Source: Chromatiales bacterium
GTDB lineage: Bacteria; Pseudomonadota; Gammaproteobacteria; SpSt-1174
DNA: 64,000 bases
Direction: 5' to 3'
Assembly (NCBI GenBank): GCA_014762505.1
Contig: JABURS010000032.1
Span: 62,001-126,000, forward strand
Shown piece after piece: positions 36,627 through 47,357 of the stretch (positions within the stretch are counted from its first letter, which is position 1; every line of letters begins with the position of its first letter). A program made the translations under genes and the position numbers. A model generated the notes under the pieces. The model worked only from the letters and a program-made list of their open reading frames with translations. It did no database searches and had not been told where the DNA came from.

Positions 36627-37052
36627 ATGCGCCTCCTGCTCCCCTGCCTGCTCCTGATCGTCACCGGCATCGCCCAGGCCCACGAGGTGCAACACGTGCT
36701 CACCCAGTCCAGCGCCACCATCATCACAATCCGCTACAGCGACGATGTTAGCGTGGCCGGCGCCCCCTACGAAATCCGCCCGCAGGGCGAGGCCGACCCG
36801 GTGCAGATGGGCTGGACGGATCGCGACGGCCGCATCGCCTTCGCCCCGCGCACACCAGGCAGCTACCGGGTCAGCGTCTTCACGGCCGACGGCCATGGCG
36901 TGAACCTCGACGTGCAGGTGGACGACTCGCTCGCCAGCGCCCATGCCGAAGCGCCACTGGTCGAGCGCCATGCGCGGCTGGTGGCCGGCGTCGGCATCCT
37001 CTTCGGCCTGTTCGGGCTGCTCATGCTGTTCTACCGGCGCCGGCCCGTCTGA
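36627..37052 (+). CDS. NikL-like accessory component of a Ni/Co ECF transporter
   Basis: This 141-residue protein has a signal peptide ending IAQAHEVQHV, which leaves a histidine at or near the mature N-terminus. A small beta domain follows (VSVAGAPYEIRP, DRDGRIAFAPRTPGSYRVSVF), then a C-terminal membrane helix with an RRR tail. This is the organisation of NikL/CbiL-type periplasmic accessory proteins that accompany CbiM-NikM. It lies three bases before cbiM. The exposed histidines probably help deliver metal, by analogy to NikL. Confidence 0.78.
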   Translation: MRLLLPCLLLIVTGIAQAHEVQHVLTQSSATIITIRYSDDVSVAGAPYEIRPQGEADPVQMGWTDRDGRIAFAPRTPGSYRVSVFTADGHGVNLDVQVDDSLASAHAEAPLVERHARLVAGVGILFGLFGLLMLFYRRRPV

Positions 37053-37055
37053 GCC

Positions 37056-37700
37056 ATGCACATCCCGGACGGCTTTCTCTCGCCCCAGACCTTTCTGCCG
37101 CTCTACGCCGTGGCGGGGGCGGCCTGGGCCGTCGGCCTGCGCCGCGTGCGCCGGCGGCTCGACGAGGAGACCATCCCGCTGCTGGCCGTGGTCACCGCAC
37201 TGGCCTTCGTGCTCCACATGATCGCCCTGCCCCTGCCCGGCGGTGCCACCGTGCATGCCACCGGCATCGGCCTGCTCGCCATCCTGTTCGGCCCCTGGAC
37301 GGCCTTTCTCTGCCTGTCGCTGGTGTTCCTCATGCAGGCCCTGCTGTTCGGCAACGGCGGCGTCACCGCCCTGCCGCTCGCCGCCCTGGCCATGGGACTG
37401 GCCGGCAGCGTCACGGCCGCCGGCCTGTATCGCCTGCTGCGCCCGCGCAGCGAGACCCTCGCCCTGTTCCTCGGCGCGGCCGCTGCCGTGCTGGTGGCCG
37501 CCGCGCTGGTGGCCGTGGTGCTCGGCATCCAGCCACTGATCGCCCAGCGCGCGGACGGCACGCCCCTGTTCTTCCCCTTCGGCCTCGCCATCACCCTGCC
37601 GGCCGTGCTGCTGCCGCACCTGGCCGTGGCGCCGGGCGAGGGCGTGCTCACCGTGCTGCTGTACCGCTTTCTCACCCGGCTGCGCGGGGTCACGGCATGA
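37056..37700 (+). CDS. cbiM: Ni/Co ECF transporter substrate-specific component CbiM
   Basis: This 214-residue membrane protein begins MHIPDGFLS. The N-terminal Met-His and a second histidine in LHMIALPLPGG form the square-planar metal site known from NikM/CbiM structures. Six hydrophobic helices and GATVHATGIGLLAILFGPW complete the family pattern. It binds Co2+ or Ni2+ and delivers it through CbiQ. Its stop overlaps the cbiQ start (ATGA). No cbiN is present; the NikL-like protein upstream takes that place. Confidence 0.92.
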   Translation: MHIPDGFLSPQTFLPLYAVAGAAWAVGLRRVRRRLDEETIPLLAVVTALAFVLHMIALPLPGGATVHATGIGLLAILFGPWTAFLCLSLVFLMQALLFGNGGVTALPLAALAMGLAGSVTAAGLYRLLRPRSETLALFLGAAAAVLVAAALVAVVLGIQPLIAQRADGTPLFFPFGLAITLPAVLLPHLAVAPGEGVLTVLLYRFLTRLRGVTA

Positions 37701-38254
37701 GAGACCGGCTGCTGCTCGGCGTGTATCTGGCCGCGGTGCTCGCCGCCACCCTGGTACACGCCATTCCCCTGCTCGCCGCCGGACTCGGGCTCGTCGCCCT
37801 ACTCGCCTGGCGCCGCGCCGCGGACGTGTTCCGCCGCGCGCTGCTGGCCGTGCTCGCCTTCAACCTGCTGGTGAGCGTCTCCTACGTGATCCTCGGCTGG
37901 CTGCGCGGCGACCTCGCCTGGCACTACCTGCTGCTGATGAACCTGCGGGTGCTGCTCATCACCGCCATGACCTTCCTGCTCATCGCGCGCATCAATATCT
38001 TCAAGGCCCTGGCCTTCTCGCCCACGCTGTCCTACCTGCTCACCCTGGCCAGCACGCAGTACCTCGGCTTTCGCCGCCTCTACCAGGACATGCGCCTGGC
38101 ACTGACCAGCCGCACGCTGGGCCGGCCCGGCCTGCGCCAGGTCTATCGCCATGGTGCGGCCAGCGGCTCGTTCTTCGTCGAAAAGGCCCTGTCCAACGCC
38201 ACGGAATCGGCCCAGGCCATGCGCTCGCGGGGGTTCTTCAATGATCCGGCTTGA
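37697..38254 (+). CDS. cbiQ: ECF transporter transmembrane component CbiQ
   Basis: This 185-residue T component is shorter than typical CbiQ (about 230), apparently through a reduced N-terminal helix set. It retains the coupling-helix region with RRLYQDMRLALTSRT and EKALSNATESAQAMRSRGF. The ARxxG-like AMRSRGF motif contacts the ATPase. It links CbiM to CbiO. The last 14 bases overlap cbiO, so translation is coupled. Confidence 0.87.
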   Translation: MRDRLLLGVYLAAVLAATLVHAIPLLAAGLGLVALLAWRRAADVFRRALLAVLAFNLLVSVSYVILGWLRGDLAWHYLLLMNLRVLLITAMTFLLIARINIFKALAFSPTLSYLLTLASTQYLGFRRLYQDMRLALTSRTLGRPGLRQVYRHGAASGSFFVEKALSNATESAQAMRSRGFFNDPA

Positions 38255-39026
38255 GGGCGTGAGCCACGCGGTCGACGACGGCACGCCGACCCTGTGCGAC
38301 GTGAGCCTCGAGATCATGCCCGGCGAACAGGTCGTGCTGCTCGGCGCCAACGGCAGCGGCAAGTCCACCCTGCTCAAGCTCGTCGACGGCCTCCTGTTCC
38401 CCGTCGCCGGCCGCTATGCCTACGACGGCACCGCCATCACGCCCGCGCAGCTGAAACGGGCCGACTTCAACCGCCGCTTCCGCCGCGAGGTCGCCCTGCT
38501 GTTCCAGAACCCGGACAGCATGCTCTTCAATCCCACCGTGTTCGACGAGATCGCCTTCGGCCTGCGCCAGCTCCTGCCAGACGACGAAGGGGACGTGGGC
38601 GAGCGCGTGCAGCACTGGGCCGGGGTGGTCGGCCTGGGCGGGCAGCTGCACCGCCCGCCCTTCAGCCTGTCGGGCGGGGAGAAGCAGAAGGTCTGCCTCG
38701 CCGCCCTGCTGGCGCTGGAACCAAGGGTCCTGCTGCTCGACGAGCCCACCGCAGCACTGGACCCGCGCTCCACCGGCTGGCTCATCGACCTGCTGCAGGA
38801 GCTGCACATCACCACCCTCACCGCCACCCACAACCTCTCCATGGCGCCCGAGCTGGGCGAACGCGCCCTGGTGCTCGGCGAGGACCACCGCCTGCTCCAC
38901 GACGGCCCCATCGAGCCCTTCCTCAAAGACCGCGGGCTGCTCATCGAGGCCAACCTGGTGCACAGCCACCGGCACCGCCACGGCGACACCAGCCACCGGC
39001 ATTTCCACATCCACGATTGGGAATGA
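38241..39026 (+). CDS. cbiO: ECF transporter ATPase CbiO with histidine-rich tail
   Basis: This 261-residue ABC ATPase has Walker A LLGANGSGKSTLLK near residue 40, Q-loop LFQNPDSMLF, signature FSLSGGEKQKVCLA, Walker B VLLLDEPTAALDPRS and the switch His in TATHNLSMA. After the ATPase fold, the last 20 residues are histidine-rich (HSHRHRHGD, HRHFHIHD). This tail is a probable Ni2+/Co2+ store or chaperone and supports the metal substrate. The ATG at 38241 lies within cbiQ. Confidence 0.93.
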   Translation: MIRLEGVSHAVDDGTPTLCDVSLEIMPGEQVVLLGANGSGKSTLLKLVDGLLFPVAGRYAYDGTAITPAQLKRADFNRRFRREVALLFQNPDSMLFNPTVFDEIAFGLRQLLPDDEGDVGERVQHWAGVVGLGGQLHRPPFSLSGGEKQKVCLAALLALEPRVLLLDEPTAALDPRSTGWLIDLLQELHITTLTATHNLSMAPELGERALVLGEDHRLLHDGPIEPFLKDRGLLIEANLVHSHRHRHGDTSHRHFHIHDWE

Positions 39027-39146: not shown

Positions 39147-39890
39147 ATGACCGACTGGCTGGAAGGCAGGGTGGTGGAACGGCGGCGCTGGACCGGGCGC
39201 CTGCATACACTGCGCTTCGAGGCGCCGCTCGGGGAGTTCCGCGCCGGGCAGTTCACGCGCGTGGCGCTGGACATCGACGGCGAGCGCGTCGGGCGTCCCT
39301 ATTCGCTGGTGAACGCGCCGGACGAACGGCCGCTGGAGATCTACTTCAACGAGGTGCCGGAGGGCCCGCTGAGCCCGCGCCTGTCCGCGCTCGAACCCGG
39401 CGACCGCCTCTGGGTGGACCGCACCCCGCGCGGCTTCTTCACCCTGGACGAGGTCCCGGAGGCGGAGCAGCTGTGGCTGTTCTCCACCGGCACCGCGCTG
39501 GGCGTGTTTCTCTCCCTGCTGAAGACGGACGAGCCCTGGCAGCGCTTTCGCGACGTGGTGCTGGTGCAGGGCGTGCGCCAGGCCGACGAACTCACCTACG
39601 ACGACACGCTGGCACGCATCGCGTCACGGCACACCGGGCAGTTCACCTTCGTGCCGGTGCTCAGCCGCGAACAGCGTCCCGGCACCCTGCACGGACGCAT
39701 CCCGCCCCTGCTGGCCGACGGCAGTCTGGAAGAGGCGATCAACCTGCGGCTTGCCCCCGAACGCGCGCAGATCATGCTCTGCGGCAACCAGGGCATGATC
39801 ACGGACGCCAGCGAACACCTGAAGGATCGCGGCTTCAGGCGTAACCGGCGCAACGAGCCCGGCCACATCACCACCGAAAAATACTGGTGA
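39147..39890 (+). CDS. fpr: ferredoxin/flavodoxin-NADP+ reductase
   Basis: This 247-residue FAD enzyme has the FAD-binding motif RPYSLVNAPDE (RxYS) near residue 51, a phosphate-binding GPLSPRL, the NADPH region FSTGTALGVFLSLL near 112 and MLCGNQGMI near 210. The C-terminal EPGHITTEKYW is the aromatic-ended tail of E. coli-type Fpr. It passes electrons between NADPH and flavodoxin or ferredoxin in oxidative stress and biosynthetic reactions. It is monocistronic; the 120-base upstream gap includes a small TGCGCCATAAGGCGCA palindrome. Confidence 0.93.
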   Translation: MTDWLEGRVVERRRWTGRLHTLRFEAPLGEFRAGQFTRVALDIDGERVGRPYSLVNAPDERPLEIYFNEVPEGPLSPRLSALEPGDRLWVDRTPRGFFTLDEVPEAEQLWLFSTGTALGVFLSLLKTDEPWQRFRDVVLVQGVRQADELTYDDTLARIASRHTGQFTFVPVLSREQRPGTLHGRIPPLLADGSLEEAINLRLAPERAQIMLCGNQGMITDASEHLKDRGFRRNRRNEPGHITTEKYW

Positions 39891-40013: not shown

Positions 40014-40961
40014 ATGGCCACGATGGACCAGACCCTCGCCGTAGTCCTCTTCATCGTCTTCAACGCAGTCACCCTCCTCGCCGGCATCATCTGGCTGATC
40101 TGGCGCGACACCCAGGGCAGGCCCTGGTGGAAACATGCCGGCATGCTGACCGGGCTTGTCCTCACCCTGCTCTGCGCGGTCCTGCTCGGCATCGGCATGG
40201 GCAGCCAGTGGCAGGGCATGGAACTGAACGGCTGCATTGCGGCCGGCAAGTGTTACTGCGAAAACCTGCCCCTGCTCGGCACGCCCATGGCCATCGCCCA
40301 GCCGGTGAGCACGCTCACGGCCTTTGCCCCCATCATCAGCGGCCTGCTCATCCTGGGCTGGGCAGACATCGACCGCCTGTCCGGCCGCCGCGACGGCAAC
40401 CCCATGAAGACCGGCAGCGTCTATGCACTGCTCTTCGGCAGCATCGTGCTGCTGCTGGGGCCCGGCAGCATGGCCTTTCATGTGAGCATGACCGAGGTGA
40501 TCAGCCGCTTCGACCCGCTCTCCATCAGCCTGTTCGCCATCTTTGCCGCGCTCTACGGCATCTGGCGCGCCTCGCTGGCCGATGCGACCCGCTGGGGCCT
40601 GATCGTCTTCCTGCTCGGTTTCGCTCTGCTGGTGGCCGCCGCCCTGGTCGCCATCTTCGTCTTCGGCCTCACCGATGAGGTGAGCATGGCGACGCTGGTG
40701 GTGCTGGTCATCGTCGAGCTCGTGCTCATCATCGCGACGGCGGCCGGCGGCATCAATCGCCTGCGGCGCAACTTCGGCTATTTCTTCGCCATCCTGGTCG
40801 GGTTCGGCCTGGCCTTCTTCCTCTGGTTCGCCTCCGAGACCGGCCGCAGCCTGTGCGTCACGGACTCCTTCTGGCAGGGCCACGGCGGCTGGCACCTCCT
40901 CGCCATGGGCCTCGTGCCATTCCTCTTCTTCCTGCACTTCCGCGCCGAGTCCCGGCCCTGA
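40014..40961 (+). CDS. ceramidase-like CREST-superfamily membrane hydrolase (putative)
   Basis: This 315-residue protein has about eight membrane helices and carries the scattered motifs of the alkaline ceramidase/CREST superfamily in the right order. CYCEN (residues 80-84) is followed by IAQPVSTLTAFAP, resembling WCExN...IAExxNTxS. GSMAFHVSMTE follows with Ser152 and His156, then Asp167 (RFDPLSI). C281 is followed by QGHGGWHLL near the C-terminus, giving His290 and His294 (HxxxH). In known members these histidines, serine and aspartate bind catalytic zinc and hydrolyse an amide bond in a lipid. The substrate here is unknown. It begins a cluster with two small membrane proteins 20 and 12 bases apart. 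Confidence 0.75.
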   Translation: MATMDQTLAVVLFIVFNAVTLLAGIIWLIWRDTQGRPWWKHAGMLTGLVLTLLCAVLLGIGMGSQWQGMELNGCIAAGKCYCENLPLLGTPMAIAQPVSTLTAFAPIISGLLILGWADIDRLSGRRDGNPMKTGSVYALLFGSIVLLLGPGSMAFHVSMTEVISRFDPLSISLFAIFAALYGIWRASLADATRWGLIVFLLGFALLVAAALVAIFVFGLTDEVSMATLVVLVIVELVLIIATAAGGINRLRRNFGYFFAILVGFGLAFFLWFASETGRSLCVTDSFWQGHGGWHLLAMGLVPFLFFLHFRAESRP

Positions 40962-40981
40962 TCGACAAGGACGACCCATCC

Positions 40982-41449
40982 ATGGAAGCCACCACACGCA
41001 ACCGGATCATCACGCACCTCATCCTGTTCTGCTCGCTCGCGCTGGCCATGTTCCTGGCCCTGTTCGCACCGCAGTGGATACAGACCACCGCCGGGGCATG
41101 GATCATCGGCATCGTCGGGCTGGTCTTCGTCGCCACCCTGCTGGTGCTCACCTCCATCGCCTCCTTCGGCGACAGCATTCCGGGCAACACCTTCAGCGAG
41201 CTGCTGCGCGAGAGCACGCTCAACAGCACCTTCTATCCATGGGCGCTTTCCGTCTACATGGGCCGCTGGTTCCATCCGGTGGACGGACTCGAATCCCCAC
41301 TGGGTCTCTTCGGTCCCGTGCTGCTGATGGCGCTGACCTGGGGGATCATCGTGCTGGGCGATGTACTGAGGAAGAAGGGAAAACGCATCTGGCCGTGGCT
41401 GATCGTGGCCCTGGGCTTTGCAACTGGCATCATCACCTGGCCGGCATAG
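40982..41449 (+). CDS. small membrane protein with WFHPVD motif (A)
   Basis: This 155-residue protein has four hydrophobic segments. The sequence YMGRWFHPVDGL lies between the second and third, and GFATGIITWPA is at the end. The next gene has the same core, so the two are paralogues. No family with known function was recognised. The start at 40982 (MEATTRNR) follows AAGGACG after the CREST gene stop. It is probably co-transcribed with the CREST-like gene, which suggests a shared membrane function. Confidence 0.75.
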   Translation: MEATTRNRIITHLILFCSLALAMFLALFAPQWIQTTAGAWIIGIVGLVFVATLLVLTSIASFGDSIPGNTFSELLRESTLNSTFYPWALSVYMGRWFHPVDGLESPLGLFGPVLLMALTWGIIVLGDVLRKKGKRIWPWLIVALGFATGIITWPA

Positions 41450-41461
41450 GGAGAAACCGAC

Positions 41462-41848
41462 ATGCTCAGCAAACAGTTCATGACACACTTTGGCGTCGGC
41501 ATGGCGCCCATCGCCGTGGTGCTGCTCGATGTGATCTTCGTCGGCCCGGGCGCGGGCAACGAACTGGTCGATGCCATGCGCTCCTCGGGCGCCACCCCGT
41601 TCATCGCCTGGGTGGTCGCCCTGTTCGTCGGGCACTGGTTCCATCCGGTGGATGACTTGAAGCCCGGCTTCGGCGTGATCGGCTTCCCCTGGAACTACAT
41701 CATCTTCGGCGGGCTCACGCTCCTGGTCGGCCTGCTCAGCTTCCTGGTGATCCCCACCGAGAGCGTCTCCGGCTGGTTTCCGTTCGTGATGGTGTTTGCG
41801 GGCTATGCCGCCGGGGCCATCTTCTGGCCGGTGGGTCTGCAGCGCTAG
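41462..41848 (+). CDS. small membrane protein with WFHPVD motif (B)
   Basis: This 128-residue protein has four hydrophobic segments. Its core FVGHWFHPVDDLKPGFGVIG aligns with YMGRWFHPVDGLESPLGLFG of the preceding protein, and its ending GYAAGAIFWPVG aligns with GFATGIITWPA. It lacks the N-terminal extension of its paralogue. Function unknown; the HPVD loop and tryptophans recall membrane-interface sites. Its stop codon shares a CTAG tetranucleotide with that of the convergent peptidase gene. Confidence 0.75.
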   Translation: MLSKQFMTHFGVGMAPIAVVLLDVIFVGPGAGNELVDAMRSSGATPFIAWVVALFVGHWFHPVDDLKPGFGVIGFPWNYIIFGGLTLLVGLLSFLVIPTESVSGWFPFVMVFAGYAAGAIFWPVGLQR

Positions 41849-46156: not shown

Positions 46157-47014
46157 TCAAGTAGACAACCCAAAAGTAGAATCACTTGCCTGCTTGAGCA
46201 CCTCTGCCGGCGTGAGCCCGCCGAGGCTGTCGTGGTCGCGCTCTTCGTTGTACTCGATCATCCAGGCCCAGGTCAGCTCGCGCACCTCGTCCAGGTCACG
46301 GAACAGCCAGGTGTTCAGTACCTCCGTCCGGTAACTGCGGTTGAACCGTTCGATATAGGCGTTCTGATTCGGCTTGCCGGGCTCGATGTAGTCGATCATG
46401 ACACCATTGTCCTGGCACCACTGGGTGAAGACCTCGCCGAGAAACTCCGGGCCATTGTCGGTCCGCAGCACGTCCGGTAGGCCACGTTCCGCTTTGAGCT
46501 GCTCAAACACCCGCACCAGACGGGCACTCGGCAAGGATGTGTCGATCTCGATCGCCAGCGCCTCCCGGTTGAAGTCGTCGAGCACGTTGAAGGTGCGAAA
46601 ACGCGTGCCGTTGTATAACGCATCGCTCATGAAGTCGGCCGACCACACCTGATTGGGGCGCTGCGGCACCATGAGCGGCTGAGGATCCCGGCTGGGGAGC
46701 CGTTTCCTGGTGCGCGCGCCCTGGTTCAGCCGTAGGCGGCAGTAAATCCGGTGCACTCGCTTGTGGTTCCAGCGGTGGCCATGACGGCGCAAGCGCCGGA
46801 ACAGCTTCCAAAAACCCAGTCCCGGCTTCTCGGCGGACAAGGCCAGCAGCGCCTCCGCTACCGGACGGTCTCGCGCCATCCAATCGGTTAAGGGCCGATA
46901 CCAGGCCGCACGGCTAAGCCCAACGCAGCGGCAGGCCTGCCGGACGGACAGGCCCTCTTCATCGAGCAGGAACTGCACCGCTGCGCGATTCTCCGGCGGC
47001 CTTAGAGCTTTTTT
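46157..47014 (-). CDS. IS3-family transposase OrfB (expressed by frameshift)
   Basis: This is the 285-residue catalytic part in the -1 frame relative to orfA. It opens with a helix-turn-helix region (LSVRQACRCVGLSRAAWYR), then the HTH_21-like region (GFWKLFRRLRRHGHRWNHKRVHRIY). The rve integrase core carries the DDE triad: VWSADFMSD, RTDNGPEFLG and PNQNAYIERFNRSYRTE. It lacks its own well-placed start, so it is normally made as an OrfAB fusion by slippage at A AAA AAG (47014-47008). The reading frame is undamaged. Confidence 0.9.
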   Translation of the reverse strand, partial: KKALRPPENRAAVQFLLDEEGLSVRQACRCVGLSRAAWYRPLTDWMARDRPVAEALLALSAEKPGLGFWKLFRRLRRHGHRWNHKRVHRIYCRLRLNQGARTRKRLPSRDPQPLMVPQRPNQVWSADFMSDALYNGTRFRTFNVLDDFNREALAIEIDTSLPSARLVRVFEQLKAERGLPDVLRTDNGPEFLGEVFTQWCQDNGVMIDYIEPGKPNQNAYIERFNRSYRTEVLNTWLFRDLDEVRELTWAWMIEYNEERDHDSLGGLTPAEVLKQASDSTFGLST

Positions 47015-47268
47015 GCGATCAGGTTCTTCATGGCGTTGTTTTCCAGCGCCATCTCGGCGTACATGTGCTTGAGCTTCGCATTCTCCGCTTCCAGCTCCTT
47101 CAGCCGCTTCAGTTCGGAGGCGCCCAGGCCGCCGTACTTGGCCTTCCACTGGTAGTAACACGCCGAGCTGATGCCATGCTTGCGGCACACGTCCTTCACC
47201 GGCAAACCCGCTTCCGCCTCGTTCAGGATCGAAACAATCTGTGTTTCCGTAAATCGGGACTTTTTCAT
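47002..47268 (-). CDS. IS3-family transposase OrfA
   Basis: This 88-residue OrfA begins MKKSRFTETQIVSILNEAEAG. It has the HTH motif VKDVCRKHGISSACYYQWKAKYGG and a leucine-zipper-like coiled coil (ELKRLKELEAENAKLKHMYAEM). It binds the element ends and regulates transposition. It ends AKKL at 47002 just after the AAAAAAG slippery heptamer, where a -1 shift would continue into OrfB. AGGAGAGG precedes the ATG at 47268. Confidence 0.9.
   Translation of the reverse strand: MKKSRFTETQIVSILNEAEAGLPVKDVCRKHGISSACYYQWKAKYGGLGASELKRLKELEAENAKLKHMYAEMALENNAMKNLIAKKL
47008..47014 (-). promoter_or_regulatory. programmed -1 frameshift heptamer
   Basis: A AAA AAG in the orfA frame, immediately before the orfA stop, is the standard slippery sequence of IS3-family elements and joins OrfA to OrfB. 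Confidence 0.8.
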
Positions 47269-47357
47269 ATGACCTCTCCTCGTGATATTTTGCCAAATAT
47301 CCACTTCAGAGTGGTCTACTTATTGGGGAAGCTTACGATCATTCATGAGGGAGAGAG

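Follow-up and report, generated by a model that had tools for sequence, protein, structure and literature searches.

The window, that is, the whole 64,000-nucleotide stretch of DNA that was analysed, belongs to a host genome of 2.77 Mb and contains three closely packed genes for membrane proteins, designated P1 to P3:

40014-40961, + strand: P1, 315 aa, putative CREST/alkaline-ceramidase-type membrane hydrolase with a seven-transmembrane (7-TM) core and about two additional N-terminal helices
40982-41449, + strand: P2, 155 aa, orphan membrane protein with about five hydrophobic segments and the motif GRWFHPVDGL at residues 94-103
41462-41848, + strand: P3, 128 aa, orphan four-helix membrane protein with the motif GHWFHPVDDL at residues 57-66

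The first-pass annotation of this DNA placed a three-gene cluster with 12-20 bp spacing at 40014-41848, and this layout is borne out by three open reading frames on the same strand, separated by 20 bp (P1-P2) and 12 bp (P2-P3) in an operon-like manner and each with a purine-rich ribosome-binding site ahead of its ATG. No sigma-70-like promoter was found for the cluster, an absence that says little. Upstream of P1 and in the same direction lies a ferredoxin-NADP reductase-like gene (39147-39890), whose best NCBIfam model is PRK10926 at 266.6 bits, under the cutoff of 390; it is preceded by a CbiM-CbiQ-CbiO cobalt/nickel-type transport cluster (36627-39026, + strand, read by eye), the ATPase of which has a histidine-rich C-terminus, HSHRHRHGDTSHRHFHIH. 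Downstream of P3 is a convergent peptidoglycan-binding/M15 peptidase gene with a stop codon overlapping that of P3. Further along, at 46157-47304 on the - strand, two overlapping frames of 100 aa and 379 aa form a transposase-like gene pair, similar to a frameshifted IS3-type element. An empty-site comparison with the same-family genome G002 gave no clean before-and-after picture, as the fpr gene of G002 has different neighbours.

The same P1-P2-P3 order, with spacing and flanks nearly identical to those in the window, occurs in the sister genome G001, a metagenome-assembled genome (MAG) of the same genus submitted as Thioalkalivibrio sp. SpSt-1174; among the genomes searched, this is the only one beyond that of the window in which the order is intact. 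The NG86 dN/dS ratios between the two are about 0.24 for P1, 0.06 for P2 and 0.16 for P3, so that P2 is the most constrained of the three, and this purifying selection indicates that P1, P2 and P3 are all genes. The P1 copy in G001 contains an in-frame TAG at codon 191 (L052, G001:C57, 778-780) where the window has GCG, a difference of two bases, and this stop codon may be real or may be an assembly error; P2 and P3 of G001 are intact despite it.

Our analysis of P1 shows that it is a CREST superfamily protein by profile, catalytic residues and predicted fold. The annotation had read ceramidase/CREST motifs in order in this protein, and all are present exactly: CYCEN at 80-84, S152-x-x-F-H156, D167 and H290-x-x-x-H294, which amounts to the CREST pattern of SxxxH in TM2, Asp in TM3 and HxxxH in TM7. 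The profile search that it had called for also came out in its favour, with P1 scoring 39.8 bits against the Pfam Ceramidase model PF05875 (curated cutoff 32.5), and the fold agrees; the Pfam models of AdipoR/PAQR and SID-1 gave no match. In an alignment of 26 sequences (P1, 24 PF05875/P1-type genes of the class and the N-terminal part of the sister P1), only six columns reach 90% invariance, namely G151, S152, H156, D167, H290 and H294; apart from the one glycine, these are the catalytic residues of CREST proteins. With the profile of this alignment, human ACER3 is retrieved from the PDB (E 9.5e-18), and the motifs SxxxH, D and HxxxH fall in register. An AlphaFold2 model of P1 has a core pLDDT of mostly 70-93, and its best Foldseek matches are SIDT1, ACER3 (6g7o) and AdipoR1 (5lxg), all CREST proteins, with a probability of 1.00 and modest TM-scores of 0.47-0.53, none at an E-value below 1e-3. 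P1 is thus an added member of an already known superfamily, and the new part of the locus is the P2/P3 module.

The likeness of P1 to the alkaline ceramidases covers the 7-TM core, the SxxxH/D/HxxxH set and the CE motif. ACER3 loses all activity when alanine replaces H81, H217, H221 or D92, and keeps about 0.2% of it in S77A (PMC9436119); the counterparts of all five essential residues are kept in P1. The cysteine pair C21-C196 of ACER3 likewise has counterparts in C82 and C281 of P1, which probably form a disulfide. In contrast to ACER3, with which it shares about 17% identity in the structural alignment, P1 has extra N-terminal helices and linked orphan P2/P3 genes, and its putative calcium site is degenerate. 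The ACER calcium site comprises D19-W-C-E-x-N24 and 32-AEF-34 (PMC6303388), whereas the matching stretches of P1, aligned by eye, are C80-Y-C-E-N-L85 and A95-Q96-P97, so that C80 stands in place of D19 and Q96 in place of E33. Since P1 lacks a large part of this site, a ceramide substrate or ACER-like regulation of P1 is doubtful. P1 carries two lysines and arginines on the side of the active site and 14 on the opposite side, and its active site would therefore most likely lie at the periplasmic face. The same genome encodes an OlsB-like N-acyltransferase, which exceeds the cutoff of PF13444 and has L-ornithine N-acyltransferase as its best NCBIfam model (E 5e-48, below the equivalog cutoff); this enzyme is a possible source of amide lipid for P1, and on account of its presence an ornithine-lipid-like amide is one candidate substrate.

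Among other gammaproteobacterial PF05875 proteins, the hypothetical CREST groups share the Pfam model and catalytic residues of P1, the closest being CER...EPxNALSN and GPGS-type proteins such as L022, L023 and L026 (21-24% identity). Unlike P1, most of the others fall in a PQDPAYH...SGHxxKHL subgroup, and their genomes have no detected P2/P3. AdipoR/PAQR and SID-1 proteins have the same zinc-site plan and are matched by the P1 model at Foldseek probabilities of 0.85-1.00, but are more weakly related to it in sequence.

P2 and P3 are real paralogues, judging from their sequences. The GxWFHPVDxL core that the first-pass annotation saw in both lies within a homology of about 100 residues (BLASTP E 4e-10, 29%), and the relation is also found in a whole-genome search (E 1.2e-6, 33%); a shared six-letter word turned up in 78 of 20,000 shuffles, and the conserved last helix of both proteins ends in WP. 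Their description as belonging to no recognised family stands as well: nothing scored above threshold in Pfam, NCBIfam or PADLOC, among which Pfam and NCBIfam gave no transporter-family match above cutoff, nothing significant was found in PHROGs (matches at E 0.025 and 0.2) or among PDB sequences, and viral, phage and plasmid collections contained no homologue of P3 or of the P2/P3 profile. Holins, phage proteins and defence proteins were considered and set aside, the PHROG matches being sub-threshold, and a profile comparison gave nothing to suggest that the pair are distant CREST proteins or relatives of P1. The label "four-helix" given to both fits P3, for which four helices are predicted, and fails for P2, which has about five, the extra one being N-terminal. 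The positive-inside rule would place the N-termini of both proteins inside: P2 has MEATTRNR and RKKGKR inside, and in P3 residues K4, K67 and R128 lie on the side of the N-terminus, as opposed to R40 in the region of the first loop, a small bias of 3 or 4 residues; a copy of P3 in another genome, G342, has KKR at its N-terminus. Together, the one-helix offset and these counts hint weakly that the core common to P2 and P3 may lie in opposite orientations in the two. The structure model of P3 has a pLDDT of 56, too uncertain for inference of fold or contacts.

The set is extremely rare. Among 369 genomes of the class, P1 is matched in four (G000, G001, G342 and the distant G283) and P2/P3 in G000, G001 and G342, with a further match in G077 that is doubtful and has internal stops. 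In G342, a MAG of a different family that is 85% complete, P2 and P3 are adjacent, P3 being 61% identical and P2 71% identical over the part kept, as it is 5'-truncated and cut at residue 68. P1 is represented there by a 5'-truncated C-terminal remnant of 30-40% identity at the end of another contig, not beside P2-P3, and the N-terminal half of P1 is not present in that MAG. The linkage that the annotation had taken as the condition for a new system is accordingly conserved only weakly, with an intact trio in one same-genus genome and adjacent P2-P3 in G342, but with the P1 fragment of the latter on a separate contig. A 132-bp repeat with copies 97.7% identical (L016 7469-7600 and L017 1-132) sits at the ends of two G342 contigs, the one with the P1 remnant and the one with P2-P3, and a further inverted copy lies at about L016 1897-1997. 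Joining the contigs through this end repeat was rejected because it is dispersed and its copies are 97.7% identical, which leaves the adjacency of P1 and P2-P3 unproven. The P1-like ceramidase gene of G283 (L018 6369-9029 region, in a 1.3 Mb genome) has a different neighbourhood, just downstream of two electron-transfer-flavoprotein-subunit-like genes. About 400 genomes of the phylum and the viral-contig, phage and plasmid collections contained no further cluster homologues, and matches in G605 and G462 of the phylum proved to be an MFS-like transporter and a large unrelated membrane protein.

Counted by genus, P1 occurs in 3 of 272 and P2/P3 in 2 of 272, both of these being shared (p about 8e-5, or 2e-4 with G077), a count that involves two lineages only and was made after inspecting the data. 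The co-occurrence that was to be checked is thus above chance, and coincidence is unlikely (p about 1e-4), albeit for those two lineages. PF05875 genes as such are present in 62 of the 369 class genomes, and no P2/P3 was detected alongside the other bacterial ones in the genomes examined. As PF05875 is widespread without them, P2/P3 are not general CREST partners and at most serve the divergent P1 type.

The reading we favour, somewhat tentatively and at a little less than an even chance, is that P1 is a divergent CREST zinc amidase, probably facing the periplasm, and is accompanied by an orphan paired membrane module that serves it. P1 would cut the fatty acyl amide of a membrane lipid in a zinc-dependent manner at a periplasmic active site, the zinc being held by His156, His290 and His294, with Asp167 activating water and Ser152 stabilising the oxyanion, as in human ACER3. 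P2 and P3 would stem from one duplication, after which P2 gained or P3 lost the N-terminal helix, and would form a hetero-pair in the same membrane as P1, presenting the lipid or handling the product. P2/P3 are probably helpers of P1, on thin evidence, since the set is rare and, of the three carriers known, two have it in a partly broken form; a new lipid-amide hydrolase system with dedicated partners, as the first-pass annotation envisaged, is plausible and thinly supported. Its strictest form, a three-component lipid-amidase in which a periplasm-facing CREST hydrolase needs an antiparallel WFHPVD pair to present substrate or export product, we regard as unlikely.

The module could also work on its own account, P2 and P3 forming an independent antiparallel hetero-pair that acts as a small transporter or flippase for a lipid or breakdown product, with P1 supplying or removing the substrate. 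The extra N-terminal helix of P2, combined with the predicted inside location of both N-termini, would flip the shared four-helix core between the two proteins, and paired genes of this sort occur among SMR and dual-topology proteins; as in SMR paired proteins, there are two small tandem paralogues, possibly in opposite orientation. Unlike in that family, the orientation of P3 is weakly predicted, given its charge bias of so few residues, and no sequence relation of P2/P3 to SMR proteins was detected; moreover, in the G342 copy as well as in P2 one helix falls below a simple prediction threshold, and neither a transporter family nor usable fold information speaks for this function, which we consider possible but somewhat improbable. 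Alternatively, P1 may in practice be no lipid-amide hydrolase but a PAQR/hemolysin III-like protein of membrane homeostasis, and P2/P3 small membrane proteins unrelated to it. CREST members are diverse in role, PAQR homologues in bacteria have an effect on membrane energetics (PMC9017321, PMC3146951), and the degenerate ACER calcium site would suit such a role; however, P1 fits the Ceramidase model and not that of hemolysin III, and its five catalytic residues are all kept, which makes this quite unlikely in our view. Equally doubtful is that the three are chance neighbours, a genus-specific cassette passed on by vertical descent with no functional link and already decaying. The confinement of the intact trio to one genus, the TAG in the sister P1 and the truncated copies on two G342 contigs are in keeping with it, and P1 may indeed be dispensable or decaying in view of that TAG and of the 5' truncation in G342, which also counts against the reading favoured above. 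Against chance neighbourhood stand the low dN/dS of all three genes, the co-occurrence above chance and the adjacency of P2-P3 across different families.

Bacterial CREST proteins are common, as the PF05875 count illustrates. In the founding CREST survey, neither of the two bacterial groups of ceramidase-like proteins had gene neighbours that were informative (PMC3146951). The tight operon that joins P1 to a pair of orphan membrane proteins, of which P2 is very strongly constrained, offers a concrete handle for co-expression, a zinc amidase assay on aminolipids and a test of complex formation. If the three-component lipid-amidase were true, P1 would be, to our knowledge, the first bacterial CREST enzyme with dedicated partner subunits.
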